Shown here piece by piece: positions 35,569-58,300 of a DNA stretch of 64,000 bases (its first letter is position 1; each line of letters begins with the position of its first letter). The stretch lies in NCBI GenBank assembly GCA_013297775.1, contig JAAFIL010000004.1, positions 1-64,000 on the forward strand, given 5' to 3'. The notes under the pieces were generated by a model. The model was given only the letters and a program-made list of their open reading frames with translations. It did no database searches and was not told where the DNA came from. Position numbers and translations under genes: made by a program. Source of the stretch: Bacteroidota bacterium (lineage in GTDB: Bacteria; Bacteroidota; Bacteroidia; B-17B0; Aurantibacillaceae).

Positions 35569-35944
35569 GGTGTCTATTTTTTTTAAGTTTTTAATTTTAT
35601 TTACTTGATGAAGTATATGCCAAATGGATGCCAAACTCTGTTTTGATTATAACTAATTGATTTTCAATTGTTTATTTTTTAATCCATTCAATCGAAGTGT
35701 TCAAAAACGAACAGTAAGTGTACACTGTTGAACAGTGGAATGTGCGATTAGAAGCGGCGTAAATAATTTAACTAACAGATAAACAGCATAGTTACAAGTG
35801 GTTCTGTAAGTGATAACAGATTTAATTTGATTTAGTAAAATAAAATTTTAATATTTAGTAAATTTTTGAAAATTTGAAAAGTGGGAAAAAAAACAATTGC
35901 CCTGCTTGTATAATTTAAAAATAGACGATCAACACACTACTAAA
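35569..35944. other. Intergenic region before the hydroxylase operon
   Basis: 376 bases between the divergent small secreted protein and the CmlA-like gene. It holds a short palindrome AGTGTACACT near 35717 flanked by ACAGT/GAACAGT repeats, a possible regulator site. No promoter box could be fixed with confidence; the end is very A-rich. Confidence 0.45.
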
Positions 35945-37576
35945 ATGGAAAATCAAAGTAAAAAATATTACCTTAAACCCAATGTGGCACTCGAAGCCTT
36001 ATTTGACCGTTGGTACGCTTGGTCTCATCTCGTTTCTCCAGCAACCGCAGCCATGAACTTGAAAGAACGGCATTTAAAAATTATGCAGTCGTATATTAAG
36101 AATCCAAAAATTCATGCGGCGGCTGTTCTTAAACCCGAAATGATGGGCGGGCCGTTTATTAATTACCAAGGTGGTCGAGTAGATGAGATAAAAGCCTTAA
36201 CAGATAAAATAATAGCAAAAAGAGATAATTTACTAAAATTGGCAGATGCGATTAATGCGTTAAACGACCTGATTCAAAGCCAAGCCAAAGGCTTTTCGCT
36301 TCATACATTGTATGCGCAAATACCCGAAGAGTTAAAGGGTTATGTAGAACTTTATTACGATCTTAATGATCAAGTTAACTTCAGATTTTTTGAGGCTTTG
36401 TTGTATAAAAGTAAGTTCTACGACGAAACGGCACAATCTATTGCGCTTCAATTGGTAGAGTCAGATAAGCAACGTAGTTTTGTATTGAGCACGCCACGAT
36501 TAGATGATGACGGTATTATTCATGTGGATCTTCCTTTTAAACATAAGGTAATTGACGATTTATTTAAAATGAAACGCACGCCAGCTAGTTATGATGAGAT
36601 TAAAAATACTTTACAAATAAAACCCGAACAAAACCAATTATTTGAAGAATTATTTTCTTTAAACGCACCTAAAGATTATGAACCTTATACAGGTCCGGGC
36701 ATACGAACAAGGTATTTTGGACATGCTTGTGTACTTGTTGAAACTAATAAAATTTCGATATTGGTGGATCCCGTTATTAGTTATGATGGGTATGAAAATG
36801 AGGTTTCGCGTTTCACCTCCGCCGACCTTCCTGACACAATAGATTATGTGTTGATTACGCATAATCACCAAGACCACGTTTTACTCGAAACCTTATTACA
36901 ACTTAGGCATAAAATTAAAAACGTAGTAGTTCCTTCATCGGGTAAAGGAAATTTACAAGACCCAAGTTTACGTCTTATGTTTCATCACCTTGGATTTAAA
37001 AACGTGATTGAATTAGATGACTTAGAAACGGTTGAGTTGAATAATTGCACGATTACCGCACTTCCTTTTATTGGTGAACATTCTGACCTTGATGTGAGAT
37101 CTAAAATGTGTGTTCATGTAAATTTACACAATCAATATAAAATTATATTTGCCGCCGACTCTAAAAACATAGCTCCCGAATTATATGAAAAAGTACAGGC
37201 CATAATGGGCACCATTGATGTGCTTTTTCTTGGTATGGAGTGCGACGGTGCACCTTTAACATGGCTATACGGACCGCTCTTGCCTAAAAAGATGGATCGC
37301 GATAAAGACCAATCTCGAAGACTTGCCGGAAGTGATTGTTCGGAAGGCATGAAAATAGTTGACCTTTTTAAAGCAAAAGATGTTTTTGTTTACGCCATGG
37401 GAATGGAACCTTGGCTCGAATTTATAAGTTCGATCAAATACACCGATGAATCGAAGCCAATCGTTGAATCGAATCGTTTGGTAGAAGCATGCCGAGCAAT
37501 TGGTATTAATGCCGAACGATTGTATGGAGAAAAAACAATTGAATACGAAGAAATTTTGGAAGCGGTAAATGGATAA
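35945..37576 (+). CDS. CmlA-like diiron MBL-fold hydroxylase
   Basis: A protein of 543 aa from ATG 35945 (16 more upstream codons are open). An N-terminal helical domain of about 265 aa precedes a metallo-beta-lactamase fold with THNHQDH (H306, H308, D310, H311). Instead of the usual later histidine there is E378 (FIGEH), and D405 in FAADSKN. From memory these match in identity and nearly in number the diiron ligands of CmlA (H305, H307, D309, H310, E377, D403), the chloramphenicol-pathway beta-hydroxylase that acts on an aminoacyl group held by an NRPS. The start of an operon with aminotransferase, exporter and PPTase supports natural-product chemistry. A zinc MBL hydrolase is the alternative. 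Confidence 0.78.
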   Translation: MENQSKKYYLKPNVALEALFDRWYAWSHLVSPATAAMNLKERHLKIMQSYIKNPKIHAAAVLKPEMMGGPFINYQGGRVDEIKALTDKIIAKRDNLLKLADAINALNDLIQSQAKGFSLHTLYAQIPEELKGYVELYYDLNDQVNFRFFEALLYKSKFYDETAQSIALQLVESDKQRSFVLSTPRLDDDGIIHVDLPFKHKVIDDLFKMKRTPASYDEIKNTLQIKPEQNQLFEELFSLNAPKDYEPYTGPGIRTRYFGHACVLVETNKISILVDPVISYDGYENEVSRFTSADLPDTIDYVLITHNHQDHVLLETLLQLRHKIKNVVVPSSGKGNLQDPSLRLMFHHLGFKNVIELDDLETVELNNCTITALPFIGEHSDLDVRSKMCVHVNLHNQYKIIFAADSKNIAPELYEKVQAIMGTIDVLFLGMECDGAPLTWLYGPLLPKKMDRDKDQSRRLAGSDCSEGMKIVDLFKAKDVFVYAMGMEPWLEFISSIKYTDESKPIVESNRLVEACRAIGINAERLYGEKTIEYEEILEAVNG

Positions 37577-37708
37577 GGCTTTGTTAAGTATTTATCCTTA
37601 CCTAAGCAAACAGTACTAATTAAAATGATGCCTAACCCGCAAAACATAGTACCCCAACAACACGAATGAATGTAAACAACAGACCTATTAATTAAAAAGA
37701 AATAAAAT

Positions 37709-39067
37709 ATGATTAATCCACTCATACACTCCATGGCAATATGCCCCGACATGAACAAAACCTACCCTAAAATTGAGTTTGGGAAAGGCGTTTATCTTTT
37801 TGAGAAAAATGGAAAAAGATACTTAGACGCTTCATCAGGTTCTTCTTCGGTTTCAAACATTGGGCATGGTCGAACAGAAATAGCTGAGGCGATGTATGAA
37901 CAAGTGTGTAAAGTAAGTGTGCTTCCAACGCATGCTTTCAGTTCAGAAATGGTTGAAAATTACTTACAAAAACTCGTAAATTTTGCACCTCAAGGATTTC
38001 AGAAAGCTTGGACGGTAATGAGTGGCACAGAGGCCGTTGAGAATGCCGTAAAGTTAGCCTTGCAATACCACCAACTTAGAGGCGAACCTAATCGTTATAA
38101 AATTATATCTCGTTGGAATACCTATCATGGTAACTCGGTTTTTATGTTAGATATTGGTGGTATGAAAGTAAGACGCGAACTTTATGCCAAATGGCACAAT
38201 AACTTTCCACACCTTTCGCCAGCATACACTTATCGGAAACCGAATGCGTTATCCATAGATGAATACACTAAAAGTTTACTAACCGAATTTGAGCAATGCT
38301 TAATTGAAACAGGCACCGAAACTGTAGCTGCACTCATTGCAGAGCCAGTTGTTGCTGCGGCACTAGGCGCTGTTCCACCACCCGAAGGCTACTTTAAGGG
38401 AATGAAAGCCATTTGCGAAAAATATGGCGTCTTATACATTTCAGATGAAATTCTAAGCGGGTTTGGCAGAACAGGTAAAAACTTTGGGATTGAGAATTTC
38501 GGAATCATCCCCGATATAATTGCTGCAGGGAAAGGCATTAGCGGAGGATATTTTCCACTATCGGCGGTATTTGCTTCTGGGAAAGTGATGCAGCCTTTTA
38601 TTGATTCTAATTCGGCCTTTTTAGGCGGACATACCTTTGCCTGCAATCCGGTTGGTGCAGCAGTGGGCACAAAAGTTTTAGACATTTTGAAAAATGAAGA
38701 TTTAATTAATCACTCACAAAAAATGGGAGCCTTGCTATTGAATAAATTGCAACAACTTCTCGATTTAGATATGGTGGGCGATGTAAGAGGTGTTGGCTTG
38801 CAATGTGGCATTGAAATTGTGCAAGATAAGGTTACCAAAAAGCCATTTCCGGCCGCACTTGCCGTTTCTAAAAAAATTGGCGAAAAATCGGTAGAAAAAG
38901 GCGTAGTATTGTATCCTGGTTCGGGTTCGGTGGACGGAACGCTTGGCAATCATATTTTAATTACGCCGCCACTCATTGTTTCGGAAACGGAGTTAGATGA
39001 AATTGTAGAGGTATTAAAAACGTGTATTAAAGAAGTGAGTAGCGAGTTAGCAACAAAAGTATTTTAA
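37709..39067 (+). CDS. Class III PLP aminotransferase
   Basis: A 452-aa fold-type I class III aminotransferase. SGTEAVENAVKLA binds the PLP phosphate, YISDEILSGFGRTG contains the cofactor aspartate, and K275 in AAGKGISGGYFPL is the Schiff-base lysine. Such enzymes transfer amino groups to omega or alpha keto acids or aldehydes. It is the second gene of the operon, 132 bases after the hydroxylase, and probably makes or finishes an amine in the product. Confidence 0.92.
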   Translation: MINPLIHSMAICPDMNKTYPKIEFGKGVYLFEKNGKRYLDASSGSSSVSNIGHGRTEIAEAMYEQVCKVSVLPTHAFSSEMVENYLQKLVNFAPQGFQKAWTVMSGTEAVENAVKLALQYHQLRGEPNRYKIISRWNTYHGNSVFMLDIGGMKVRRELYAKWHNNFPHLSPAYTYRKPNALSIDEYTKSLLTEFEQCLIETGTETVAALIAEPVVAAALGAVPPPEGYFKGMKAICEKYGVLYISDEILSGFGRTGKNFGIENFGIIPDIIAAGKGISGGYFPLSAVFASGKVMQPFIDSNSAFLGGHTFACNPVGAAVGTKVLDILKNEDLINHSQKMGALLLNKLQQLLDLDMVGDVRGVGLQCGIEIVQDKVTKKPFPAALAVSKKIGEKSVEKGVVLYPGSGSVDGTLGNHILITPPLIVSETELDEIVEVLKTCIKEVSSELATKVF

Positions 39068-39159
39068 AAAATGTGATTAAACCGAATATTAAGAACAAAT
39101 CGAATAATTGATGTTAGATGAAAAAAATCGCATGAAGACTTATTTAAAATACAATTCAA

Positions 39160-40809
39160 ATGTTTGATTTTATAAAGTTAATTGATCGAAAAAAAGCGGT
39201 CGCCATTTTTGTTTTAGGATTGGTATCTGGATTAACTAGTTTCGGATTTTTAGCTTGCATTAATTTCATGATTGAAGTTATTGTGAACAAAAAGAACGCC
39301 ATTAACACAAATTATATTCTATTATTTTGCGCCCTTATGTTAGGATTTGTGTGGAGCAAAGTTGCACTGGCGCACATCGTTGTTAAATTTTCGCAACGCA
39401 CATTTTGGAAACTACGCGCTGAGGTTTTAAATACCATTTTAAAAGCCAGCTTTTATCAGTTTAGTAAACGAAAAGATAAAATTTATGCTTCGCTAGTACA
39501 CGATGTAAATGTTTTAACCGATTTCTCACTTTCAATTATTAATTTTTTATCGGCTCTTATTATCACTACGGGCTGCTTCATTTATATTGGCATGTTATCG
39601 CGCACCTTGCTACTTATTACGCTAGGCGTATCGGTCTTTGCCGTGGTTCTTTACTGGATTGGTGTTTTCTTCAATCGAAAAAAATTAGAAACATCGAGGG
39701 AATTAGAAAATAGTTTTATGAGTCATTTTTTAGACATTTTATCGGGCTTCAAAGAAATTCACATGAACCCTAAAATTGGGCAAGATATTTTTAATAGAAA
39801 AATAAAAAATATATCCAACGAATCGTTTATTAATAACATCAAAGCATTTAAAGGGTTTTTAAACTTACAAATTACAAGCGAAATAGCATTCTACTTATTG
39901 ATTGCCTTTGCTTTAATTTTTAATTCACTCTTTGTTAATGAAACAGCTGTAACCATTGTCAATTTTGTTTTTATCCTTCTTTATTTACTCGGAAGCATCA
40001 ACACCATTGTATTTATTATTCCAAGTATGGTGCAAGCAAAAATTGCGGCCGATAGAATATACAAGTTGAAAAACGAACTAAGTGATGAACGATTCGAGAA
40101 TCAACTCGAAAACAAAAAGATACCGATGAATGTGTTTGAAAAACTGATTGTTTCGGATTTGAAATTTGTCTATAAACAGGAAGAAAGCAAAGAAAATTTT
40201 TGCGTAGGTCCACTAAACTTTTCATTAGAAAAAGGCGAAGCTGTTTTTATTTATGGAGGCAATGGCAGCGGAAAAACAACCCTGATGAATGCGATACTAG
40301 GCATTTTAAAACCCGACTCGGGAACAATAACATTTAATGAAACTGCGTTATCGCCTTCTAATTATAACGATTACCGAACTTTATTTTCTGTTGTGTTTAA
40401 CGATTTCCACCTCTTTAACGAATTGTATGGATTTGATGCCATTTCGGAAACGGAAATAACTAATTACTTAGAATTATTTGAATTGAATGATAAAGTGAAG
40501 TGGGTCAATCATTCGTTTTCGTCGGCGAGTTTATCTACTGGGCAACGCAAACGCTTAGGGCTTATTGTTGCCCTCATGCGAAAAAGTCCGGTATTAGTGC
40601 TCGATGAATGGGCCGCCGACCAAGACCCTGTATTTCGTAAGAAATTTTATACACAAATAATTCCTGAACTAAAAGCACGGGGTTACTCTCTAATTGCTAT
40701 TACACACGACGATGCGTATTACCATGCCGCCGATAAATTATACAAAATGGAATCGGGACAATTAACACGCGAGTCTTTAATTAACCTATCTAAAACAGAA
40801 TTGGTATAA
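39160..40809 (+). CDS. Cyclic-peptide-type ABC exporter
   Basis: A 549-aa fused ABC exporter: six transmembrane helices (about 15-300), then an ATPase domain with Walker A YGGNGSGKTT, signature SLSTGQRKRL and Walker B VLVLDEW. The length, the WAADQDP after Walker B and the fusion fit the PvdE/SyrD/YojI cyclic-peptide exporter group (TIGR01194). It likely exports a peptide or lipopeptide, as in pyoverdine export. It overlaps the thioesterase by one base (TAATG). Confidence 0.87.
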   Translation: MFDFIKLIDRKKAVAIFVLGLVSGLTSFGFLACINFMIEVIVNKKNAINTNYILLFCALMLGFVWSKVALAHIVVKFSQRTFWKLRAEVLNTILKASFYQFSKRKDKIYASLVHDVNVLTDFSLSIINFLSALIITTGCFIYIGMLSRTLLLITLGVSVFAVVLYWIGVFFNRKKLETSRELENSFMSHFLDILSGFKEIHMNPKIGQDIFNRKIKNISNESFINNIKAFKGFLNLQITSEIAFYLLIAFALIFNSLFVNETAVTIVNFVFILLYLLGSINTIVFIIPSMVQAKIAADRIYKLKNELSDERFENQLENKKIPMNVFEKLIVSDLKFVYKQEESKENFCVGPLNFSLEKGEAVFIYGGNGSGKTTLMNAILGILKPDSGTITFNETALSPSNYNDYRTLFSVVFNDFHLFNELYGFDAISETEITNYLELFELNDKVKWVNHSFSSASLSTGQRKRLGLIVALMRKSPVLVLDEWAADQDPVFRKKFYTQIIPELKARGYSLIAITHDDAYYHAADKLYKMESGQLTRESLINLSKTELV

Positions 40810-41498
40810 TGCACACAGTAACTAAAATCCAACTTTTTTTATTGCACTTTTCAGGTGGAAACGTCTATTCGTTTCAATTTTTAAAACCTCACTTGCCATC
40901 TAATTTTGAGTTTCTACCCATTGAGTTGCCTGGTCGTGGAAAGCGAATGAGTGAAAAATTTGTAAACACAGAAACCGAAGCGGTAATGGATTTAGTAAAT
41001 CAAATTACCTTGTTAAGAAACACGGGACCTTACCTGGTATTTGGCCATAGTATGGGTGCCACTTTAGGATTGAGAGTAACTAAAAAGCTAGAAGAATTAG
41101 GCGATCCACCTCAAAAGCTAATTGTTGCGGGCAATGCAGGGCCTGGAACGGGAGAGGATAAACTACGCTCGACCATGACGGATGAAGAACTTAAAAACGA
41201 GTTAAGAGAGCTTGGTGGCGTACCCGAGGAAGTACTTAATAACACTGACCTTTTTAATTTTTTTGCGCCAATATTACGATCCGATTTTAAAATTATTGAA
41301 GAAGCTGAAGAACTAACGAACGATTTTAAATTGAAACTTCCTATAAATGCTATTATGGGCGACCAAGAAGAAACTTCGGAACAAATTGAGAATTGGAAAA
41401 ATTTTACCTCGGGAGAATTTAAGTCGTATCACCTTCCGGGAAATCATTTTTTTATATTTGACTCGCCAAAAGCGTTAATCGAAATTATTAAAAATTGA
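40809..41498 (+). CDS. Type II thioesterase
   Basis: A 229-aa alpha/beta hydrolase of the GrsT/type II thioesterase family. The nucleophile S81 sits in FGHSMGA, and a late GNHFFIF supplies the catalytic histidine. LLHFSGGNVYSFQFL at the N-terminus is typical. These enzymes clear stalled or wrongly loaded carrier domains of NRPS/PKS lines, so a carrier protein must exist somewhere. It starts inside the exporter stop and is followed by PPTase after one base. Confidence 0.92.
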   Translation: MHTVTKIQLFLLHFSGGNVYSFQFLKPHLPSNFEFLPIELPGRGKRMSEKFVNTETEAVMDLVNQITLLRNTGPYLVFGHSMGATLGLRVTKKLEELGDPPQKLIVAGNAGPGTGEDKLRSTMTDEELKNELRELGGVPEEVLNNTDLFNFFAPILRSDFKIIEEAEELTNDFKLKLPINAIMGDQEETSEQIENWKNFTSGEFKSYHLPGNHFFIFDSPKALIEIIKN

Positions 41499-41499
41499 C

Positions 41500-42195
41500 A
41501 TGATAGACCTTTGGTACCTCGATACAAAAACGATTACCCCAAAAGATGTAGAAACACTGTTAGCGTTTCTGCCGCAAAATCTTGTTAATGAAATTACACG
41601 TTTCAGATTTCATGAAGATAGGCGACTTAAACTTTTTGGAAGATTGATCGTTGAAAGCTATTATAAAAATCAACACCTCGCATTTAACTGGAACGATTGG
41701 AAAATTTCGCCAGCTGGTAAACCATATTGTAACCCCCAGCAAGCGTTTAACATTTCGCACGCCGGAACGTATGTACTCGTTGCGTTTTCAACTCATGAAG
41801 TTGGTGTAGATATTGAGAGGGTGGTTCCCTTCGATGTGCAAACCATTCGTACTTATTTCCATCCAGAAGAAGCCGAATACATTTTGCATTCAACCAACTC
41901 TAATTCAGCTTTTTTTAAATTATGGACCAGAAAAGAGGCGTACCTGAAAGCAATAGGTAAAGGAATTGTGGACGGACTTCATCATGAAAATTGTTTACCC
42001 GATGTATTGAACCAAACCGAAAAATGGTTTTTACATAGTTTATCGTTCGTTCCCGAGTATCATGTGGCGGTGTGCACAAACATTGCCAATTGCCCAATCA
42101 CCATTCGTCAACTTCATCCTAATCAGCTCGAACGCAGCCAATCGGAAAATCAACGCTTAACTAAGAAAAATAAAAACGTCAACCTATTCCCTTAA
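41500..42195 (+). CDS. 4'-phosphopantetheinyl transferase
   Basis: A 231-aa Sfp-type phosphopantetheinyl transferase, which attaches the CoA arm to carrier proteins. VGVDIERV carries the Mg ligands, and FKLWTRKEAYLKAIGKG is the (W/F)xxKEA motif; FNISHAG is also conserved. It lies 1 base after the thioesterase. Again this implies a carrier domain that is not encoded in this window. Confidence 0.92.
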   Translation: MIDLWYLDTKTITPKDVETLLAFLPQNLVNEITRFRFHEDRRLKLFGRLIVESYYKNQHLAFNWNDWKISPAGKPYCNPQQAFNISHAGTYVLVAFSTHEVGVDIERVVPFDVQTIRTYFHPEEAEYILHSTNSNSAFFKLWTRKEAYLKAIGKGIVDGLHHENCLPDVLNQTEKWFLHSLSFVPEYHVAVCTNIANCPITIRQLHPNQLERSQSENQRLTKKNKNVNLFP

Positions 42196-42201
42196 TTTGA
42201 T

Positions 42202-44565
42202 ATGAAACGGATTTCCTTTGGTTTTTTATTCCCATTACTCGCTTTAATTTTACTCATTAGCGTTTTAAACCGAAACGTTTTTATGGTGCCTGCTTTGGGT
42301 ATTTTATTGAGTCCATTTAAAGGCGTGGTGCAAAATGAAAAAAGTACCCAAACAACAATGGAAATGGATTTTGGACGAAAGGTTACCTCCACTATTTTAT
42401 TTGATGAGCGATCGGTTCCACATATTTTTGCCAACAATTCGAGCGATTTATTTTTTAATCAAGGTTATGTAACCGCATCAAACCGATTGTGGCAAATGGA
42501 CTTTTTATCTTATGCAGCAGCTGGAAGACTTAGCGAAGTATTTGGTGAAAACTTATTAGACTACGATCGCAATCAACGACGCGTTGGTTTATTAACCGCC
42601 GCCAAAAACTCACTTGCATTTATTGAAACCAATCCCGAAACTAAGATTGCCCTCGATAACTACACTAAAGGAGTCAATACTTATATTAATCAATTAGCGC
42701 TAACCCATTTACCTTTCGAATATAAATTACTAGATTACCGTCCCGAGCCTTGGACCAATTTAAAATCGGTTCTAATTATGAAATACATGGGTGCTCAATT
42801 GGCGGGTTACGAAGAAGACCTCCCTTCGTCGTACTTATTAGCAGCCCTTGGCAAAGAAGAATATGATAAACTCTTTTCAAATTATTTTATTAATGAAACC
42901 CACAAAAAATTTTCTATAGATCTTGTTAAAGATACCTTACCACCTAATTCTTATTTCGATTTCTCGTTTCTAGAATCTTCGTCTCAAATTGCCAATAACT
43001 CGCATAACCCGAGGTTAGGAAGTAACAGTTGGGTAATAGGTCCTTCAAAAAGTAAATCGGGTTCGGCTATTTTGTGCAACGACCCTCACTTAACACTATC
43101 CATTCCTGCAATTTGGTTCGAGTTACAGTTACACTCGCCCGAGATGAATGTTTATGGCTATTCCATTCCGGGTACGCCTGGCATTATAATTGGGTACAAT
43201 AATTCAATTGCATGGGGGCTTACCAATGGTTCGGTAGATGTTTGTGATTTTTTCAAACTCGAATTAAAAGATAAGTTTAACCAATACCTATTGGATGGGG
43301 CTTGGAAAGACACTAAGCAAACTATTGAAACTATAAAAATAAAAAATGGTAAACCTTTTTATGACACCATTTATTACACCATTCATGGTCCAATCGTATC
43401 CGATTTTAGATTTGGAGCTAAAGAAAAAGAAGGCTTGGCCATGAGCTGGGCTTTACACGAACCTTCGAATGAATTTTTAGCATTAATCCAATTAAATAAA
43501 GCCAATACCTACGAACGTTTTAAAGCCGCTATTCAACATTTTAAATGCCCTTCACAAAATTTTGCTTATGCCGATGTGAAAGGTAATATAGCCAGTCACC
43601 TTCAGGGGCGCATACGCAAGAACTCTAAAAGTGGAATGGGTAAATTTATATTGAAAGGAACCGATTCAAAATATGTATTGAAAGAACTGTTGCCACAAGA
43701 ATTACCTTCGTTGTATAACCCCGAGCGGGGATTTATAGGCTCGGCCAATAACAATCCGTTTCCTAAAAACGATTCGTTGTCTATAAATGGCTATTACTCT
43801 GAATTGAGGTACAATAAAATAAACCAACTTTTATCGAAGCCAAATAAATTTTCGGTAGATGATATGAAGCAAATGCAATGCGATAATACAGACCGTTTGG
43901 CTGAACTAGCGGTTCCTGTGTTAATTCCTTTTATTAGTAAAAATAATAAGTACGAAAAAGAATTGCGCGAATGGAATTGCGCTTACACAAAAGAAACGAA
44001 AATGGCTTTGGTATTTGAGCGGTGGTGGGCTTTTATTAAGGATAATACTTGGGATGAATTAGCCAAATACCCTAAGGTTCAAAAACAGCCCGACGATTTG
44101 GTATTATTAGATCTTATTGTAAATGACCCTAGCAACCTCTATTTTGATGACCTTTCAACCGATGTCAAAGAAACGGCGAGTGATATTATACAACTATCTT
44201 TTGAGCAGTTAACACAAAGTTGGCTATCGTATCCACTAACATGGGGCGATTACAATCAAGTTAGTATTATGCACCTGACAGACATCCCCGCGTTAAGCTG
44301 TCGAAAAAAATCATTGTCGGGTCATGCCAATGCCATCAATGCGCTATCGCACAATTGGGGCCCTGCTTTACGATTTATAGTAGAAATGAGCGATAAGCCA
44401 CAAGGATATGGTATTTATGCTGGCGGGCAATCTGGAAATCCTGCTTCTCAAAAATACGATGCTTACCTAGAGGATTGGACAAAAGGTAGGTATTACCCAC
44501 TTCATTTTTTTCTTAACCAAGCCGAAGGGGAAACTCAAACAACTTACAAATGGATTATAAAATAA
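42202..44565 (+). CDS. Penicillin acylase-family amidase
   Basis: A 787-aa N-terminal-nucleophile amidase. A membrane or signal segment (about 5-25) is followed by the alpha chain. The probable nucleophile S274 in LGSNSWVIG would start the beta chain after self-cleavage; DPHLTLSIPAIWFE and GYSIPGTPGIIIGYN are conserved beta-chain motifs. In pyoverdine and zeamine-type systems such periplasmic acylases (PvdQ-like) trim an acyl group from an exported precursor. It could do the same for the product exported by the adjacent ABC protein. Confidence 0.88.
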   Translation: MKRISFGFLFPLLALILLISVLNRNVFMVPALGILLSPFKGVVQNEKSTQTTMEMDFGRKVTSTILFDERSVPHIFANNSSDLFFNQGYVTASNRLWQMDFLSYAAAGRLSEVFGENLLDYDRNQRRVGLLTAAKNSLAFIETNPETKIALDNYTKGVNTYINQLALTHLPFEYKLLDYRPEPWTNLKSVLIMKYMGAQLAGYEEDLPSSYLLAALGKEEYDKLFSNYFINETHKKFSIDLVKDTLPPNSYFDFSFLESSSQIANNSHNPRLGSNSWVIGPSKSKSGSAILCNDPHLTLSIPAIWFELQLHSPEMNVYGYSIPGTPGIIIGYNNSIAWGLTNGSVDVCDFFKLELKDKFNQYLLDGAWKDTKQTIETIKIKNGKPFYDTIYYTIHGPIVSDFRFGAKEKEGLAMSWALHEPSNEFLALIQLNKANTYERFKAAIQHFKCPSQNFAYADVKGNIASHLQGRIRKNSKSGMGKFILKGTDSKYVLKELLPQELPSLYNPERGFIGSANNNPFPKNDSLSINGYYSELRYNKINQLLSKPNKFSVDDMKQMQCDNTDRLAELAVPVLIPFISKNNKYEKELREWNCAYTKETKMALVFERWWAFIKDNTWDELAKYPKVQKQPDDLVLLDLIVNDPSNLYFDDLSTDVKETASDIIQLSFEQLTQSWLSYPLTWGDYNQVSIMHLTDIPALSCRKKSLSGHANAINALSHNWGPALRFIVEMSDKPQGYGIYAGGQSGNPASQKYDAYLEDWTKGRYYPLHFFLNQAEGETQTTYKWIIK

Positions 44566-44572
44566 AAAAAAT

Positions 44573-44974
44573 ATGAAAATTATTCTTACTGTTTTATTGC
44601 TTGTGTTTGTATCCGTTGCCGTGCAGGCTATGACGTTTTTACCGTGGTGGAGTTTTGTTATTCCTATTTTTTTATTAGGCTTTGGTTTACCTTTAAAAAG
44701 ATGGAACGTTTCTGCTTTTTTGTTGGGCTTTACGGTTGGCTTTTTGGTTTGGGTGTTCTCTACCCTTTATTTTGAAATGCAATACGAAGGCTTCATCATT
44801 AAAAAAGTAAGCCTTTTATTTAACATGCCTCAAGTGGTATTATATGGCTGCATTGGTTCTATTGGCGGGGTACTTACTGGGTTGGCGTTTTACTCGGGCT
44901 ATTTACTAAGAAAAGGAAGAGAAGATATTCAACTGGATTTATCGAATACGCCTAAAACGCATCTTGAGAAATAG
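44573..44974 (+). CDS. Small membrane protein
   Basis: A 133-aa integral membrane protein with four hydrophobic segments (about 1-20, 23-38, 45-66 and 83-108), the last followed by a charged tail. It begins 7 bases after the acylase gene and is likely the end of the same operon. No family recognised; a role in transport or anchoring is possible. Confidence 0.65.
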   Translation: MKIILTVLLLVFVSVAVQAMTFLPWWSFVIPIFLLGFGLPLKRWNVSAFLLGFTVGFLVWVFSTLYFEMQYEGFIIKKVSLLFNMPQVVLYGCIGSIGGVLTGLAFYSGYLLRKGREDIQLDLSNTPKTHLEK

Positions 44975-45232: not shown

Positions 45233-46225
45233 ATGAAAGAGGATAGCAGTTTTATTATTTACAACAATCCCAATGGTGAAGTTAAAGTAGATGTTTTTGT
45301 GGAAGGTGAAACCGTTTGGCTCACCCAAAAAAGCATGGGCGAACTTTTTGGTGTAACAAAAAAAACCATTAGCGAACATTTGGGAAATATATTCGGAAGT
45401 AATGAGTTGTTAAAAGAAGCAACTGTCCGGAATTTCCGGACAGTTCAACAAGAAGGCCTTCGTGCGGTTAACAGAGATTTGGAATATTACAATCTTGATG
45501 CCATCATTTCGGTTGGTTACAGGGTAAACTCTGCCAAAGCGACCCAATTTAGAATTTGGGCCACACAAACGCTTAAGGAATACATTATTAAAGGTTTTGT
45601 TTTAGACGATAACCGACTAAAACAGGGGCAAACTCTTTTTGGTAAAGATTATTTCAAAGAATTACTCCGAAGGGTTCGTTCCATCCGAGCCAGCGAACGT
45701 AGAATATACCAACAAATAACCGATATCTTTGCTGAGTGCAGTATTGATTATGACAAGCATTCAGACATTACAAAAAACTTTTATGCCATGGTTCAAAACA
45801 AATTTCACTTTGCCATTACAGGAAAAACAGCCGCTGAAATTATACACCAATGCGCAAATAAAGAGAAAGATAATATGGGGCTTAGTACATGGAAAAATGC
45901 ACCAGATGGTCGAATAATAAAAACAGATGTAATTGTAGCAAAAAACTATTTGCAGGAAAAAGAAATTAGCCAATTGGAAAGAACGGTAACTGGCTATTTT
46001 GATTACATAGAAGGTTTGATAGAAAGAGAAAATACCTTTACAATGGAGCAATTGGCAGATAGCGTAAATAAGTTTCTAACTTTTAATGAATATAAACTAC
46101 TACAAGGTAAAGGTAGAATTTCTAAACTTCAAGCAGATAAAAAAGCCGTAAAAGAATATGATGCGTTTAACAAAACTCAAAAAATAATTTCGGACTTTGA
46201 CAAAGAGTTAAAAAAGAAGTTATGA
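45233..46225 (+). CDS. RhuM-family protein
   Basis: A 330-aa protein of the RhuM family (virulence RhuM/ KilA-N-like accessory genes, often in mobile or abortive-infection-like contexts). Landmarks are VWLTQKSMGELFGVTKKTISEHLGNIF (a helix-turn-helix-like start; only the pattern is given), YYNLDAIISVGYRVNS and FRIWATQTLKEYI. The gene carries a 25-bp perfect palindrome at 45421-45445. It stands alone between a natural-product operon and cell-wall genes and probably arrived by transfer. A terminator follows. Confidence 0.85.
   Translation: MKEDSSFIIYNNPNGEVKVDVFVEGETVWLTQKSMGELFGVTKKTISEHLGNIFGSNELLKEATVRNFRTVQQEGLRAVNRDLEYYNLDAIISVGYRVNSAKATQFRIWATQTLKEYIIKGFVLDDNRLKQGQTLFGKDYFKELLRRVRSIRASERRIYQQITDIFAECSIDYDKHSDITKNFYAMVQNKFHFAITGKTAAEIIHQCANKEKDNMGLSTWKNAPDGRIIKTDVIVAKNYLQEKEISQLERTVTGYFDYIEGLIERENTFTMEQLADSVNKFLTFNEYKLLQGKGRISKLQADKKAVKEYDAFNKTQKIISDFDKELKKKL
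45421..45445. repeat. Perfect 12-bp inverted repeat within rhuM
   Basis: AACTGTCCGGAA-T-TTCCGGACAGTT is a perfect palindrome with a one-base centre. It encodes part of TVRNFRTVQQEG just before the NRDLEYYNLDAIIS block. It is GC-richer than its surroundings. Confidence 0.9.
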
Positions 46226-48321: not shown

Positions 48322-48729
48322 ATGGAATTTTTCAAAAATCGCTTTTTTACAGTAACAGAAATAAAACCTAATTTATTTGAATACGAGATTCACGGCGTTG
48401 AACCTACCGACCAAGAAGTGAACGAATGGATAGGTATCGTTGAAAAAATATTAGCAGAACGCCAACGTGTAGCTAGTATTTATCAAATGGCCAATATGAA
48501 ATTTTTAAAATCGGATCATCGAATTATGATTGGAAATTGGCTTAAAAAAGAGTCGGTAAACATCCGCACAAAAACCATTGCGGTGGGTTATTGCACCGAT
48601 AGTGTTTTAGGTAAAATGGTTTTGAGTGGCATTTTTTTAGTTCAAAAACCGGAGTTCCCTTACATGACTTCGACCAATAAAGAAGATGTTTTAAAATGGA
48701 TTGACGAACAAATGCAAAACGAAAAGTAA
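48322..48729 (+). CDS. Uncharacterised paralogue 1 of 3
   Basis: A 135-aa soluble protein, first of three tandem paralogues. Shared core: FFKNRFFTV at the start, then EPTDQEV, IYQMANMKFLKSDHRIMIGNW, TKTIAVGYCTDSVLGKMVLSGIFLVQKP and a C-terminal STN-x2-(D/E)-x3-W helix. The pattern suggests an alpha/beta fold such as STAS/SpoIIAA-like, but I do not recognise a named family. A TACTTTTG promoter box precedes it. Confidence 0.75.
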   Translation: MEFFKNRFFTVTEIKPNLFEYEIHGVEPTDQEVNEWIGIVEKILAERQRVASIYQMANMKFLKSDHRIMIGNWLKKESVNIRTKTIAVGYCTDSVLGKMVLSGIFLVQKPEFPYMTSTNKEDVLKWIDEQMQNEK

Positions 48730-48775: not shown

Positions 48776-49195
48776 ATGATGTACCACTTTAAAAACCGAT
48801 TTTTTGAGTTAAAAGAATTAAAACCCAATTTTTTTGAATGTACCATATCTGCAGTAGAGCCTACCGATGCAGAGGTAAAAGACTTTTTGAATGAGTCGGA
48901 TAAGATTTTAAAAGATTATAACCATATAGGCACCATTTACCAATTAGAAAACATGAAGTTGCTAAAAGCTGATCACCGCATTGCCATTGGTAATTGGACT
49001 AAAAAAAATAACGAACTCATTAAGCAAAAAACTGTTTGTGTAGGATATAAAACAGATAGTATCTTAGGTAAAATGGTGCTCAATGGTATTTTTATTATTC
49101 AAAAGCCTGTGTTTCCCTATTTAATTTCGACTAACGAAGCCGAAATTTTAGCGTGGATGGATAAACAATTTCTAGAATCGAAAATAGGAGTTTAA
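48776..49195 (+). CDS. Uncharacterised paralogue 2 of 3
   Basis: A 139-aa protein closely similar to its neighbours. It shares FKNRFFELKELKPNFFE, AVEPTDAEV, IYQLENMKLLKADHRIAIGNW and VCVGYKTDSILGKMVLNGIF. It is closer to copy 3 (WTKKNNELIK-x-KT in both) than to copy 1. Another ATG follows the first, so the start could be one codon later. Function unknown; probably expressed with copy 1. Confidence 0.75.
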   Translation: MMYHFKNRFFELKELKPNFFECTISAVEPTDAEVKDFLNESDKILKDYNHIGTIYQLENMKLLKADHRIAIGNWTKKNNELIKQKTVCVGYKTDSILGKMVLNGIFIIQKPVFPYLISTNEAEILAWMDKQFLESKIGV

Positions 49196-52359: not shown

Positions 52360-55300
52360 ATGAAAAAAAGTTTAGTTTTAAGTAGATTGTGCATTTTATT
52401 TTTCGTTTTTCTTTTCCAAAATAATTTTTCACAAAAAAATGTAGAGGCCGCTCGGTTAAAAATAACCAATATGGTATTTGATACTGACTCGTTGCAAGGT
52501 TTTGACGAGGACGTTTATAAAAGTATGGCTTTAGCTAGTGGCTTTTATGGGTACGAATACAAAACGTTTATGAACAGGGCTAAACGCGCTTACATTAATC
52601 GTAAATATGCCATTTATCCCAACGCCAGTGCTTTTAAGCCTTACAATCCTAACTCTGGGCAACCCAATATTTTAGGCTTACCTTGCGTTAACGAAGGCTT
52701 CGAGGCCTCTCCCAATGTTCCATTTACAACAGTTCCGCAAGGCGGTGTACCCTCAATTCCATCAGGGTGGACAGGCTCGCAAGGTCAAAATGGTCAATGG
52801 GATCCGACTTATACCTTTTACTACAATACCTGTAGCGTAAGTGCCATGCCCAATTCATTTTTTTCGATGACACCAACCGAAATGTGGGTGAGGCAAACGC
52901 CTATTGCCGACCCTAATTTTCCAGGGGGTATTCCTAACTCGCCTTTAGGTGGCACCCGCGTGATGCAACTTAACGATAATATTGCTTTATCTGGCGAAAT
53001 TTCTCGTATTACGCAAACCTTTCCTGTAACTTCTAACAATGCCCTATTTCAATTTGCTTATGCCGCTTGTTTCGACGGTACTGGGCATAGTTGTTGTGAT
53101 CAACCTTTTCTTAACATTAAAGTAAAAAATTGTTCTAATGTTACTTTATCGTGTCCGCAAGTTTCGGTGGTAGCCTCTGGAGCCTATTGTACCGCAGGTA
53201 CACCGGGCTTTGCCACCAATTCGTCTGGTTATCTTTACCGCAACTGGACCGTTCAATCCATTGACTTAACGCCCTACATTGGTTCGTGTGTAACCATCGA
53301 AGTGGCCGTTGGCGATTGCACAGGTTGGGCACATTTTGGGTATTGTTATTTCGATGCCTTATGTTCACCCATGAATATTGTTGTAAATGGCACTTCGTTC
53401 CCAGCCGGAACAGCCGCTTCTACGGTTGCTGCCTGTGGAGCGTCGAGTGCTACCATGACGGCACCTCCAGGTTTAGGCCCTTACACTTGGAATGGTCCAG
53501 GCGGATCGGGAGTAACCAATAATTCTAACCAAACTGTATCTAGTACGGTTGCAGGTACTTATACGTTAAGTATGAATCCTCCTGGATCGTGTGCCCCTAT
53601 TGTAAAATTTGTAACTCTTGTGTTTCCTCCTCCCGTTTCAGCGGCATTTAATAATACCAACGCCTGTAATGTTTTTACTTTTAATCACACAGGTACAATT
53701 CCTTCTACACAATCTTATTCCTTTGCTGGGGTAGGTGCACCGCCTGGTTTTACAACAACAGCAACTAGCACCGCCGTTACTTTTCCAACAACGGGTAATT
53801 TTACTGTTACACATGTAGTAACCAATACTGCTGGGTGTACGGCAACCGCAACGGCTGTTATAAACGTGCCAACCGCTGTAAACCCAGGTTTTGCTATTCC
53901 ATCGGCTACGCAATGTTTAAATGGTAATAATTTTAGTTTTAATGCGGTTACGATTCCTGGCACGCATAGTTACTCGTTTAGCCCGTCGCTTGGTGCGCCT
54001 GCGGTTGGGTCAAGTGCAAATTACGCAGGTAGCTTTACCGCACCAGGAACTTATACGGTTACGCATAGCTTATCAAATGGTGGTTGCACCTCCTCCACAA
54101 CGGCTATTGTAGTTGTTAATCCTATGCCCAGTTTGATTGCCACGCCAACCAATGCTAATTGCGGCAATAGCAATGGCAGTATCGTTATTAGCAATACATC
54201 TCCCGCTGGACAAACCGCTACCGGTTTTTCTTTAAATGGTGGGGCTATACCTTCTCAAACCGTTATTAATTTAGCGGCTGGCACTTATACTTTAGGAATT
54301 ACAAATAATTTTGGCTGCGCGGTTACAACCGTAACAACCATTACCAATACACCGCCCATTACCAACTTAGCACACACACAGGTTAATCCAGCTTGTGGCA
54401 ATAGTAATGGAAGCATTACATTAGGCTTAGTAACTGGTGGAACGGCACCTTATGTGTTTTCGGTAAATGGAGGCCCATTTATTGCTACGCCACCATTAAC
54501 AAATTTAGCAGCGGGTAACTACACGGTAATTGTTCGCGATGCGTTTAATTGTACGTTTACCAAAGTCATCACGTTAGTAAATACTCCTCCTCCAACGAGT
54601 ATGGGCTTTAATATTTTACCAACCGCTTGTGTTGGCAATAGTGGGGTTATTACTGTAACTAACGTAGTAGGCGGGACTCCAGCTTATAGTTATAGTATTA
54701 ATGGAGTAGCAAGTAGTAGCGTTATGAGTGGTTTATCGGGGGGGACTAAAACCATCACCGTGGCCGACGCCAATGGATGCACGTATAGCACCACAGCTAA
54801 TGTACCTGGTGTTAGCGGGCCTAGTTCGGCAACTGTTATTACCCAAAATGCAGCTTGCGGCAATCCCAATGGTAGCGCAACAGTAACCGCAGTTAACGGC
54901 GGAGTGCCAGGGTATCAGTATTCATTCAATAATGGACCTTTTTCGAGTAATGCTTTTCAAACAGGCTTACCTAGCGGCATTCACACGGTTATTATTCGCG
55001 ATGCTAACTCATGTACATTAAGTGTTACTTTTAACGTAGGCAACACAGGAAGCCCTGTTAGTGCGGTTAGCAACCTTAGTCAAGTAAGTTGTTTTAATGG
55101 AAGCAATGGCAGTTTTAGTATTAACACTGTTGGAGGTACACCAGGCTATAACTACACACTCACCCCCATCGGAACAATTAATAGTACAGGTATATTTAGT
55201 AATTTACCAGCTCAAAGTTATACGGTGAGTGTTAAAGATGCCGTTGGTTGCATTACTACTTTAACAACCACTATTACTCAACCCTCGGCAGTAAGTGTGT

Positions 55301-58300
55301 CGGTAACTTCTAATCCTGTAAGTTGTTTTAATGGCAGCAATGGCACTATTACAGCTATTCCAAGTGGTGGAACAGGTCCTTACCAATTTAACATCAATAG
55401 TAATCCCAATCAAGTTAGTCCTATTTTTAGTACCAACATTAGCGCAGGTGCTTATAACGTAACGGTTATTGATAGTAAGAACTGTACCAGTTCGCAAACT
55501 ATTACAGTCAATCAGCCTAGTGCCATTTCAACTACTGTTAACACAACAAATGCTAATTGTACAACTGCCAACGGCACCGCTAGTGTTTCGGCATCAGGTG
55601 GAACGCCTATTTATACTTATAGCTGGAGTCCAAATGGCGGCACAACCGCTTCGGCCATTGGTTTATTAGCGGGTACTTATACCGTTATTGTAAGAGACAT
55701 AAATAATTGTAGTGTAACCGCTACGGGTCTTATAGGTCAAACATCAGGAGGAACTGCCACCATTACCAATATTACAAATGTAACGTGTAATGGGTTTAAC
55801 AATGGTAGTTTAACGGCGGGTATGACTGGTGCGGGTACTGCACCTTATACCTATAGTTGGATACCGACTGGAGGAACTAATCAAATTGCGAGTGGTTTAG
55901 CACCGGGTACTTATAGCGTATTAATTACAGATTTTTATGGTTGTAAATCTGTTGCCAGTGCTAACATTACCCAACCCAATGTTTTAAACTTTTCGTTAAG
56001 CACCAATAGTGTAAGTTGCTTTGGCGGCAATAACGGCAGTGCTACTATCAACGGTCTTAGTGGTGGAACACCTGCCTACACTTATTTATGGGCTGCGGGA
56101 GGGGCAACAACCACTACCAGTAGTAATTTACCGGCTGGCACTTATACGGCAACTGTAACCGATGCCAAAAATTGTACGTTAAGCCGAACCGTCAGCATCA
56201 CGCAGGCTACTTCTTTAACTTTGAATACGACCACCATAACCGCCAACTGTACGCTTCCTACGGGCGGCGCAACGGTAAGCGCATCGGGTGGTGCGCCTGC
56301 CTATACCTATACATGGAGTACGAGTGCGGTAGGTCCAATCATTTCAAACGTTGTTGCGGGCACTTATTCTATTTTAGTGAAAGATGCTAACAATTGTACC
56401 TATTCGGTATCGGCTACTATTCCTGCTGCTGCTGGACCTACAATAACCTCTACTAGTTTTACAAACGTAAGTTGTAACAGCGGCAATGGCGGCACCAATA
56501 ATGGATCGGCTCTAGTTACTGTAATTGGTGGGGCGGGTTTACCAAACTATAATTGGAGCAATGGTCAAATAACGCAAGCCGCTACGAACTTAGCACCAGG
56601 CATCTACACCGTTACCGTTACCGATGTAGCAGGTTGCACAACCTCAACGGCGGTAACTATTTCTCAACCGCCTTTATTAACGGCAAGTATTAATCCAACT
56701 GCGGTAAAGTGCTTTAATGCCGCTAATGGTTCGGCTACGGTTAGCGTTTTAGGCGGTACACCTGGTTATTCTTATACATGGGTACCTAATCCAACCATAG
56801 GTAATACCAGTGCTACGCCTTCGGGCATGAGTCCTGGCAATTACAATGTAATTGTAACCGACAGCAAAGGGTGCACGCGCACAACTAGCACTAGCATTGG
56901 TAATCCTCCTCAATTGTTAGCTGCTGTAACCTCAACCAATGTTAAATGTTTTAATTCCACCTCTACTAGCTTAATGGGTTTAGCTGCGGCCACGGCTAGC
57001 AATGCACAAGGGGCTGTTAGTTATTACTGGATAGGAGGTTCTAATCCTTTAACTACACAAGCAGTAAATGGTTTAGGAGCGGGAACTTACACAATGACGG
57101 CGAGCGATCAAAACAGTTGCACGGCCACGGTAGTTTTTAATATTACACAACCAACCGCTTTAAATGCTTTGTTTACAGCCACTCAAATGCCTAGTTGTAC
57201 TTCTTACAGCAATGGGTTTATTACAGTAACTCCCTCAGGAGGCACACCAGGTTATACTTATAATTGGAGTAACTTACAAACGGGTTCTACGGCTACTAAT
57301 ATTCCGGCGGGCAATTATGCTGTTACCATTACAGATGCAAATACTTGCTCTTTAACTTTATCTACAATTCTTAACCAACCTAGTGGCTTAAATGCTACTG
57401 CTACTGCCACTAATGCTCTGTGTAACAACGGAACAGGAACCTTGAACGTAGCCTACAATGGTGGAACGGGTTCAGTGAATGTACAATGGCAACCGGGGGG
57501 TTTATATACAACAGCGTATGTACCTACCGCTATGCCTTTACCCATTGGATTGGTTTATACGGTTACCTTAACCGATGCAAATACGTGTGCCTTAACGCGT
57601 ACCGTAGCACTTACTGCACCTCCTGCATTAACCGCCGCCGTTACGGCAACGGTTAATACCAATTGCGGACAAGCCAATGGTGGGGCTACTGTAACAGCAA
57701 GTGGCGGAACAGGTAATCCGTTTTATGCGTATCAATGGAATAATGGTGCTTTAACGCAAGGTATTAGTAATGTATTAGCTGGTCCTTATCAAGTAGTTGT
57801 TCGCGATATTAATAATTGTACGTTTACGGTAGTGGCTAATATTCCCAATGTTACGGGGCCAACAGTAAGTATTGTTAGTTCTTCTTCTCTCGTTTGTAAC
57901 GGACAAGCTAATGGCACCGCAAGCATTTCTGTATCGGGACCTGTCGCTATTACAACAACTTCTTGGACTGGGCCTGTGAGTCCAAGTCCTATAAATGCGC
58001 CTACCAATTTAGTGAGCGGTATTTATGTTGTAACAGTAGTAGATGCTGCCAATTGTGTAAGCAGTGCTTCGTTACAAATTAATCAGCCAACACCTTTAGT
58101 AAGTGCCATTACTTCGGTTACGAATGTGAGTTGTAATAATGGCATGGATGGAGGTGCTTTAGTATTAGTGAATGGTGCAACACCAGCCTATACTTACAGT
58201 TGGTTTCCAACGACCTCGCTACAAACGAACTCTGTACTGAGTAGTGTGCCCATAGGCACTTATTCGGTATTGATAACAGATGCGAACGGTTGCACCCGAA

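Follow-up and report, generated by a model that had tools for sequence, protein, structure and literature searches.

The closest described systems each share some enzymes with the locus considered here. In the biosynthesis of FR900359, as excerpts of the published account have it, FrsH, a diiron enzyme of the CmlA family, carries out the beta-hydroxylation of leucine at an NRPS module (PMC7794379). Portions of the report on the chitinopeptin cluster of Chitinophaga place a CmlA-type hydroxylase, with a metallo-beta-lactamase fold, within the NRPS cluster, and suggest that the product of a missing precursor gene, sbnB, may come in trans from another cluster (PMC9248904). For pyoverdine, the passages drawn on here describe how PvdQ, an Ntn acylase, strips the N-acyl group in the periplasm (PMC6206403). 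The locus under study lies at 35945-44974 of the window, i.e., the whole 64 kb stretch of DNA that was analysed, which is the first 64 kb of a contig of 156,644 bp (C63). It consists of seven intact genes on the same strand, recognized from the list of open reading frames and from Pfam and NCBIfam profiles, and given here after their leader:

35681..35944, plus strand: AT-rich leader of the array (GC 0.27 for 35640-35944)
35945..37576, plus strand: CmlA/FrsH-type non-heme diiron beta-hydroxylase (PF18456 CmlA_N, 303.6 bits, plus a metallo-beta-lactamase fold domain)
37709..39067, plus strand: class III aminotransferase (PF00202 Aminotran_3, 300.3 bits)
39160..40809, plus strand: cyclic-peptide ABC exporter, PvdE/SyrD-like (TIGR01194, 338.4 bits, above the curated cut-off of 286.2)
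40809..41498, plus strand: stand-alone (type II) thioesterase (PF00975, 130.2 bits; GHSMG at residue 79)
41500..42195, plus strand: Sfp-type 4'-phosphopantetheinyl transferase, or PPTase (PF01648, ACPS family, 60.1 bits; PF22624, AASDHPPT_N, 45 bits)
42202..44565, plus strand: penicillin-amidase-type Ntn acylase with an N-terminal hydrophobic stretch (PF01804 Penicil_amidase, 621.5 bits)
44573..44974, plus strand: small hydrophobic protein adjoining the acylase (no family; hydrophobic stretches)

Six catalytic motifs are intact in the array proteins. The hydroxylase joins CmlA_N to a metallo-beta-lactamase domain with the HxHxDH motif (HNHQDH at residue 306), and its family profile scores 574.7 bits against PDB entry 8a90 and 487.2 bits against CmlA itself (4jo0); by the precedents of this family, its substrate would be an aminoacyl group on an NRPS carrier domain. 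The thioesterase is a free PF00975 domain with a GxSxG motif, as expected of the type II enzymes, and the PPTase is a two-lobed protein of the ACPS superfamily, as are Sfp-type enzymes; the only other ACPS-family gene of the genome lies on contig C1. The acylase match spans the whole domain, and the first serine of GSNSW (residue 273) aligns to residue 1 of the mature beta chains in PDB entries, i.e., the N-terminal serine of an Ntn beta chain. Its score on the NCBIfam equivalog model for PvdQ is far too low (72 vs 950 bits), so that what speaks for a role in deacylation is its fold and its gene neighbourhood. The small protein, with no match in Pfam or NCBIfam, is probably a membrane protein; among the 80 loci that encode a related hydroxylase, nine have a relative of it, and each of these nine has an acylase. 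For the aminotransferase we propose a putative role in making or modifying a building block.

The first-pass annotation had described an operon-like array of six genes, and while the gene families stand, the count is seven and a single operon is likely for the last five genes only, because gaps of 132 and 92 nt set off the hydroxylase and the aminotransferase, and in the remainder neighbours overlap by 1 nt or are spaced by 1-7 nt. Scans for signals gave little: the six gaps that were scanned hold no full match to a Bacteroidota-type promoter consensus, the sole partial match, near 39061 on the minus strand, being to the -7 element, and scans for sigma-70 promoters (37 vs 44.2) and terminators (12 vs 11.5) stayed at chance level. 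The GC content of the array, set beside that of the window and of the NRPS contigs, offers no useful contrast. Across 22 gene comparisons with four related loci (L036-L039), pN/pS, or dN/dS where defined, ranges from 0.08 to 0.41; in 17 of these comparisons the synonymous sites are saturated. The set is more than a chance assortment, as most of it recurs in relatives and it changes under constraint.

The array does not form a conventional clustered NRPS locus, in which accessory genes lie beside the synthetase. The earlier observation of tailoring genes with no NRPS, PKS or carrier protein in the window is borne out by frames and profiles, and it extends to the entire contig, for a Pfam search found no PP-binding, Condensation or AMP-binding match anywhere on C63, whether in the 35.9 kb upstream of the array or in the approximately 111 kb downstream. 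When the rest of the genome was inspected for such genes, as the first-pass annotation had advised, they were found on contigs C61, C5 and C96, which hold NRPS genes and one KS-AT PKS gene. The genome has eight Condensation matches (C61 four, C5 three, C96 one) and nine PP-binding matches (C61 six, C5 two, C13 one). The array and the NRPS contigs complement each other in gene content: the sole exporter match in the genome at E up to 1e-40 is the one on C63, and by eye no free thioesterase is seen in the lists of open reading frames of C61 and of C96:1-12000. The last synthetase on C61 carries a thioesterase domain that narrowly passes (26.6 vs a cut-off of 26.4). It is extremely improbable that the product is instead made on a stand-alone carrier by some unfamiliar route; the type II thioesterase and the PPTase do act on carriers, and the window lacks one, but apart from those in the synthetases the genome has a single carrier match, an 83-aa frame on C13 that is probably the fatty-acid ACP, and related hydroxylase loci with both flanks available invariably adjoin NRPS or PKS genes (see below). 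It is also very unlikely that the array is what remains of a cluster after loss of its synthetase, with its genes decaying or reused: the emptiness of C63 on both sides of the array would suit such a history, but all seven frames and six motifs are intact, the genes change under constraint, and a matching synthetase is present in the genome.

The best explanation, to which we assign a probability of roughly 0.83, is that an NRPS-PKS cluster has been split, that the array is its accessory half and works in trans with an assembly line encoded at the edge of C96, on C5 and on C61, and that the pathway is most likely of an ordinary kind, making a nonribosomal peptide. Among the possibilities raised earlier, a synthetase encoded elsewhere is favoured because NRPS-PKS genes are present on C96, C5 and C61 and because relatives keep both halves together; neither a lost synthetase nor an unfamiliar route is needed. 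Gene content, intactness, constraint, the presence of synthetases and co-location in relatives are the observed basis of this reading. C61, C5 and C96 each break off within NRPS genes, and since the contigs end inside synthetase genes we infer their joining into one line, as we do its acyl start and each enzymatic step. In a tree of 37 condensation domains, drawn to ask if the first one on C96 might be an acyl starter and with no named starter domain as an anchor, this domain is very divergent and groups with one from genome G012 (support 1.0) and then with the first domain of locus L102 (0.85). A leader shared by the array and C96 was not detected (the local score of 33 was also attained in 54 of 300 shuffles), and the same holds for the array leader and the 3' side of C61 (score 22, reached by 187 of 300). 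C61 also carries an HPPD-like gene, whose nearest PDB entries are HPPDs, with 2r5v lower. Adenylation codes, read by eye, include some Ser-, Asp- and Ile/Val-like ones and carry no weight.

Comparison with relatives, proposed earlier as a check, shows that most of the gene set recurs, mainly beside homologous NRPS genes. NRPS or PKS genes are within reach in 76 of the 80 loci with a related hydroxylase, and in 51 of the 51 for which both flanks are available. In three relatives most of the accessory genes adjoin NRPS genes that are 47-58% identical to those of our genome. The G031 cluster (JAUXSA010000035.1, L028/L036) has the order of the array, hydroxylase-ABC-TEII-PPTase-acylase-small protein, at 49-82% identity (hydroxylase 82%, exporter 70%), but unlike the array it is joined to an NRPS gene, which precedes the hydroxylase, and has no aminotransferase at the corresponding place; its NRPS is 58% identical to that of C5 over 844 aa, the next best being 39%. 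Locus L037 has an NRPS-hydroxylase-aminotransferase run, the latter two 82% identical each, with the TEII-PPTase-acylase-small-protein block on the opposite strand, and the end of its NRPS (carrier plus thioesterase) is 47% identical over 329 aa to the end of the last C61 synthetase. In L038 the hydroxylase and the block are flanked by two NRPS genes (57% over 313 aa and 57% over 877 aa) whose homologues are adjacent on C61. A fourth relative, L039, has its accessory genes on a short contig free of NRPS; its genome and that of L038 hold a homologue of the 2798-aa C61 synthetase, which matches the C-terminal 899 aa at 62% identity over 897 aa. A luciferase-like gene beside the start of the C96 NRPS (C96:1972-2985) matches genes within the L038 and L039 blocks at 71% and 69% identity, respectively, and no other frame of the 80 loci is listed at >=38% and E up to 1e-10. 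The array might serve a different assembly line that is absent from the assembly, since NRPS-type genes collapse easily in assemblies and the NRPS contigs are fragments, but this is quite unlikely, for the genome is 99.99% complete, homologues of its NRPS pieces accompany array genes in relatives, and the luciferase-like gene links the C96 NRPS to the accessory block.

Some observations count against the split reading. The hydroxylase of L037 is 82% identical but its NRPS 47-48%, while the figures for L038/L039 are 76-77% and 62%, so that the two sets of identities rank differently. A search of G040, the genome of L036, with the C-terminal 899 aa of the C61 synthetase gave no match; the exporter is absent from the short contigs of the three close relatives other than G031; and, among close relatives, a close aminotransferase (82%) occurs in L037 only. 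In favour of the split reading, Condensation matches over the cut-off occur within the genus in all four genomes with the hydroxylase, our own included, as compared to three of 36 others. Against it, G008, G012 and G033 have Condensation matches without such a hydroxylase, exporter or second PPTase. An extra PPTase alone does not accompany NRPS in the genus, because six genomes with two PPTase matches (G001, G023, G025, G026, G036 and G038) lack a Condensation match over the cut-off.

The array could also lie truly beside the NRPS genes, with a false join in C63 either near 35.7 kb or somewhere from 45 to 46.5 kb, an error that we consider unlikely and that would make no difference to the biology. 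In G031 and L037 no more than about 30 nt separate the hydroxylase from the NRPS gene ahead of it, the breaks of C61, C5 and C96 interrupt NRPS genes, and the flanking genes CdaA and Mpl, sought in 40 genomes of the genus (our own included), share a contig elsewhere only in G001 and G002, at distances of about 1.5 and 1.3 Mb. An empty site, with the two flanks directly joined, was found in none of the 40, where location on different contigs does not prove distance. Against a false join, collinearity of the left flank with the relative G030 extends to about 35680; DNA homology (blastn) stops there, which places the join to the housekeeping flank at 35681..35944. The list of open reading frames has no NRPS piece of at least 100 aa at the joins, and the NRPS region gives way at its outer limits to fatty-acid genes (C61) and genes such as the luciferase-like one (C96), the array being at neither. 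Gene order in the genus is moreover loose, since UvrC is near CdaA in G030 and in our genome lies on C1 with different neighbours.

In the split pathway, the PPTase would arm the carrier domains of the synthetases, the diiron hydroxylase would beta-hydroxylate an amino acid held on one carrier, the type II thioesterase would free mis-primed or stalled carriers, and the aminotransferase would supply or alter a building block. The thioesterase domain of the last C61 synthetase may release the peptide, upon which the ABC exporter would carry the still N-acylated peptide over the inner membrane and the Ntn acylase would strip the acyl group at the outer face, the small hydrophobic protein perhaps taking part; export and deacylation are thus probably PvdE/PvdQ-like. 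More tentatively, the TEII-PPTase-acylase-small-protein block might be a portable cassette that moves separately from the synthetases and provides priming, editing and export-trimming in trans, with the small protein as an unrecognised partner of the acylase. This doubtful but possible reading draws its support from the varied positions of the block, which is downstream in G031 (same strand) and L037 (opposite strand), between two synthetase genes in L038, upstream in L102 and wholly apart in our genome.

Cluster finding usually judges a pathway by the neighbourhood of its synthetase; for the C61 synthetase this would miss the exporter, PPTase, hydroxylase and acylase, and the array alone would pass for an orphan. 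When the two are paired, a beta-hydroxylated, perhaps deacylated peptide can be predicted, and the pair offers a concrete test case for accessory enzymes acting in trans. Our literature search found no paper on split clusters or on this gene set. The array hydroxylase is likened to FrsH through membership of the CmlA family. With the PvdE/PvdQ part of pyoverdine biosynthesis, as covered in the passages cited, the array shares a cyclic-peptide-type ABC exporter, an Ntn acylase and a free thioesterase (PvdG) (PMC6206403), and its acylase differs from PvdQ (72 of 950 bits on that model). As in the chitinopeptin cluster, so far as the portions cited describe it (PMC9248904), a metallo-beta-lactamase-fold hydroxylase of the CmlA type and an ABC transporter are found together in a member of the Bacteroidota; unlike that cluster, where the hydroxylase lies inside the NRPS cluster, the array stands away from its NRPS genes and includes an acylase and a PPTase.

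The seven-gene array at 35945-44974 is a real and conserved set of genes, best explained as the accessory half of an ordinary NRPS-PKS system whose cluster has been split. All seven genes are intact and lie on the + strand.

Genes of the array at 35945-44974 (genes 1 to 6 assigned by open reading frame and family search)
Gene 1 of 7, + strand: CmlA-type diiron hydroxylase
Gene 2 of 7, + strand: class III aminotransferase
Gene 3 of 7, + strand: cyclic-peptide exporter
Gene 4 of 7, + strand: free (type II) thioesterase, TEII
Gene 5 of 7, + strand: Sfp-type PPTase
Gene 6 of 7, + strand: penicillin-amidase-type acylase
Gene 7 of 7, 44573-44974, + strand: hydrophobic protein of 133 aa without a Pfam or NCBIfam match

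Genes 3 to 7 overlap by 1 nt or are separated by gaps of 1-7 nt. The tailoring genes that the first-pass annotation had described as an operon-like array of six are real, but they number seven, and gaps of 132 and 92 nt separate the hydroxylase and aminotransferase from the genes that follow them. The array proteins carry six catalytic motifs, and pN/pS (dN/dS in the five comparisons with unsaturated synonymous sites) ranges from 0.08 to 0.41 over 22 comparisons of array genes with the loci of four close relatives (L036-L039), which at the level of sequence shows constraint and nothing beyond that. Immediately 3' of the array is a RhuM-family gene (45233-46225, 357.6 bits); genes of this family are frequent cargo of mobile islands.

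The array was originally noted for the lack of an NRPS, PKS or carrier gene in the window, which spans bases 1-64000 of contig C63 (156,644 bp). On the whole of C63, PF00550, PF00668 and PF00501 all gave zero matches. Elsewhere in this genome (4.35 Mb in 128 contigs, rated 99.99% complete) such genes are present on contigs C61, C5 and C96: PF00550 has nine matches (six on C61, two on C5 and one, in an 83-aa frame, on C13), PF00668 has eight (four on C61, three on C5 and one on C96) and PF00501 has 13. C96 opens inside an NRPS gene whose start, at 1503, bears a condensation domain; C5 (7,490 bp) is one open NRPS frame throughout; and the right end of C61 (34,624 bp), where the contig begins, falls inside an NRPS gene. 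This partial gene is followed by a 2798-aa synthetase, a KS-AT-carrier gene, an aminotransferase, an HPPD-like gene, a last synthetase with a thioesterase-domain match in its closing part (26.6 bits; cut-off 26.4) and two fatty-acid synthesis genes. We read C96-C5-C61 as a single assembly line, with joins that we infer between the contigs. The 2798-aa synthetase (L011 8253-16646) has a methyltransferase domain at residues ~737-864, within an adenylation domain that by eye is apparently degenerate, and a full adenylation domain after it at residues 1155-1492.

That the synthetase might be encoded elsewhere is supported by relatives in which homologous NRPS genes adjoin the same accessory genes. 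In the genus genome G031 (locus L036) the order is NRPS-hydroxylase-ABC-TEII-PPTase-acylase-small protein, matching the window from the exporter to the small protein; the aminotransferase is missing there, and L037 and L038 are arranged differently. Identities of G031 to the window are 82% (hydroxylase), 70% (ABC), 67% (TEII), 57% (PPTase), 64% (acylase) and 49% (small protein), and its NRPS fragment shares 58% identity with C5 across 844 aa (the runner-up in the compared NRPS set reaches 39%). L037 has an NRPS end, comprising carrier and thioesterase domains, that is 47% identical across 329 aa to the final part of the last C61 gene. Next come hydroxylase and aminotransferase (82% each) and, on the opposite strand, small protein, acylase, PPTase and TEII, with no exporter within the 12.6 kb of its contig. 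In L038 (Flavobacterium sp. UGB4466) two NRPS genes, each 57% identical to one of two adjoining C61 genes (across 313 and 877 aa), enclose a TauD-family gene and the hydroxylase, with a luciferase-like gene and the TEII-PPTase-acylase-small-protein block on the other strand. The 8.9 kb contig of L039 (Niastella populi) carries this block, a luciferase-like gene and the hydroxylase without an NRPS. The C-terminal 899 aa of the 2798-aa synthetase found a match (E up to 1e-30) in 11 of 12 chosen genomes, the best being 62% over 897 aa in those of L039 and L038; the genome of L037 gave 48% and that of L036 no match at this threshold. A luciferase-like monooxygenase gene (C96:1972-2985, L014) of the kind kept in the accessory blocks of L038 and L039 sits beside the NRPS start, and its identity to those copies (71% and 69%) ties, by sequence similarity, our NRPS locus to the accessory block.

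To gauge how unusual such a split is, GTDB genomes were scanned with an alignment of six hydroxylase sequences, which yielded 223 relatives. The best 80 loci, more than one of them from some genomes, were scored for NRPS/PKS by BLASTP (80 bits or more to the C5, 2798-aa or PKS protein of this genome). Among these best 80, an NRPS/PKS lies within the fetched stretch of 76, at a median distance of 100 bp to the nearest such ORF, and in all 51 loci with at least 9.5 kb on both sides. The exceptions, L039, L066, L087 and L107, are each shortened on one or both sides. L107 (Hymenobacter rubripertinctus), with exporter, TEII, acylase, small protein, hydroxylase and PPTase, shows no NRPS in its 14.1 kb (10 kb clear upstream, 2.5 kb downstream); its genome does contain NRPS matches, and the locus may represent another array of this detached kind. 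Relatives of the small protein were found by BLASTP in nine of the best 80 loci (L036-L039, L102, L107-L110), always beside the acylase, of which it is a possible partner.

Within the genus, the hydroxylase occurs in 4/40 genomes, all among the seven with Condensation over the cut-off, and the exporter (E up to 1e-40) in 3/40, the window copy being its only match in our genome; G008, G012 and G033 have NRPS pieces without either gene. PPTase matches number at least one in 39/40 genomes and two in 10/40, including ours (on C63 and C1). Since two occur in 4/7 genomes with Condensation over the cut-off versus 6/33 others, a second PPTase is not an NRPS marker in this genus. In G030, an 806-aa ORF lies between two CmlA-type hydroxylase genes of one cluster (C69:195357-201092, L022) that are 56% and 50% identical to the window copy.

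To the left of the array, collinearity with G030:C38 extends to ~35680, beyond which G030 continues with a 95-aa ORF and UvrC; on the right, homology to G030:C39 starts at ~46518, which is that contig's start. The flanking housekeeping genes CdaA and Mpl are ~1.5 Mb apart in G001 and ~1.3 Mb in G002. Proof of the junction is beyond the assembly alone, but UvrC of this genome sits on C1 with different neighbours. Gene order here is therefore loose, and misassembly is not needed to account for the junction. Farther right are a tandem pair of similar small proteins (48322-48729 and 48776-49195; 135 and 139 aa), by eye a duplication, and a giant surface protein (52360-60348, 2662 aa) that combines SprB repeats and PKD domains with a type IX secretion signal of the CHU_C type.

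The TEII-PPTase-acylase-small-protein block may be a portable cassette, and the value of the split-cluster finding is practical, for genome mining. A same-phylum precedent for in-trans supply is one chitinopeptin cluster that lacks sbnB, for which PMC9248904 suggests another cluster as a source. In five Flavobacterium loci (L074, L076, L083, L089, L091) a ~790-aa ORF separates hydroxylase and thioesterase. That of L074, the one examined, is a TonB-type receptor, and such a gene would be in keeping with a product that binds metal or is re-imported. No TonB receptor adjoins the window array; one is encoded at 11555-13705, some 22 kb off. Enzymes of the CmlA/FrsH family, as outlined in PMC7794379, hydroxylate amino acids on NRPS carriers, and by analogy the window hydroxylase would act on a carrier-bound amino acid of an NRPS. 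In pyoverdine maturation, as described in PMC6206403, the acylated precursor most likely leaves via PvdE and is then deacylated by PvdQ. Although the window acylase fails the curated PvdQ model, exporter and acylase together resemble this step, and the exporter may release an acylated peptide that the acylase would then deacylate, in the manner described for PvdE and PvdQ.
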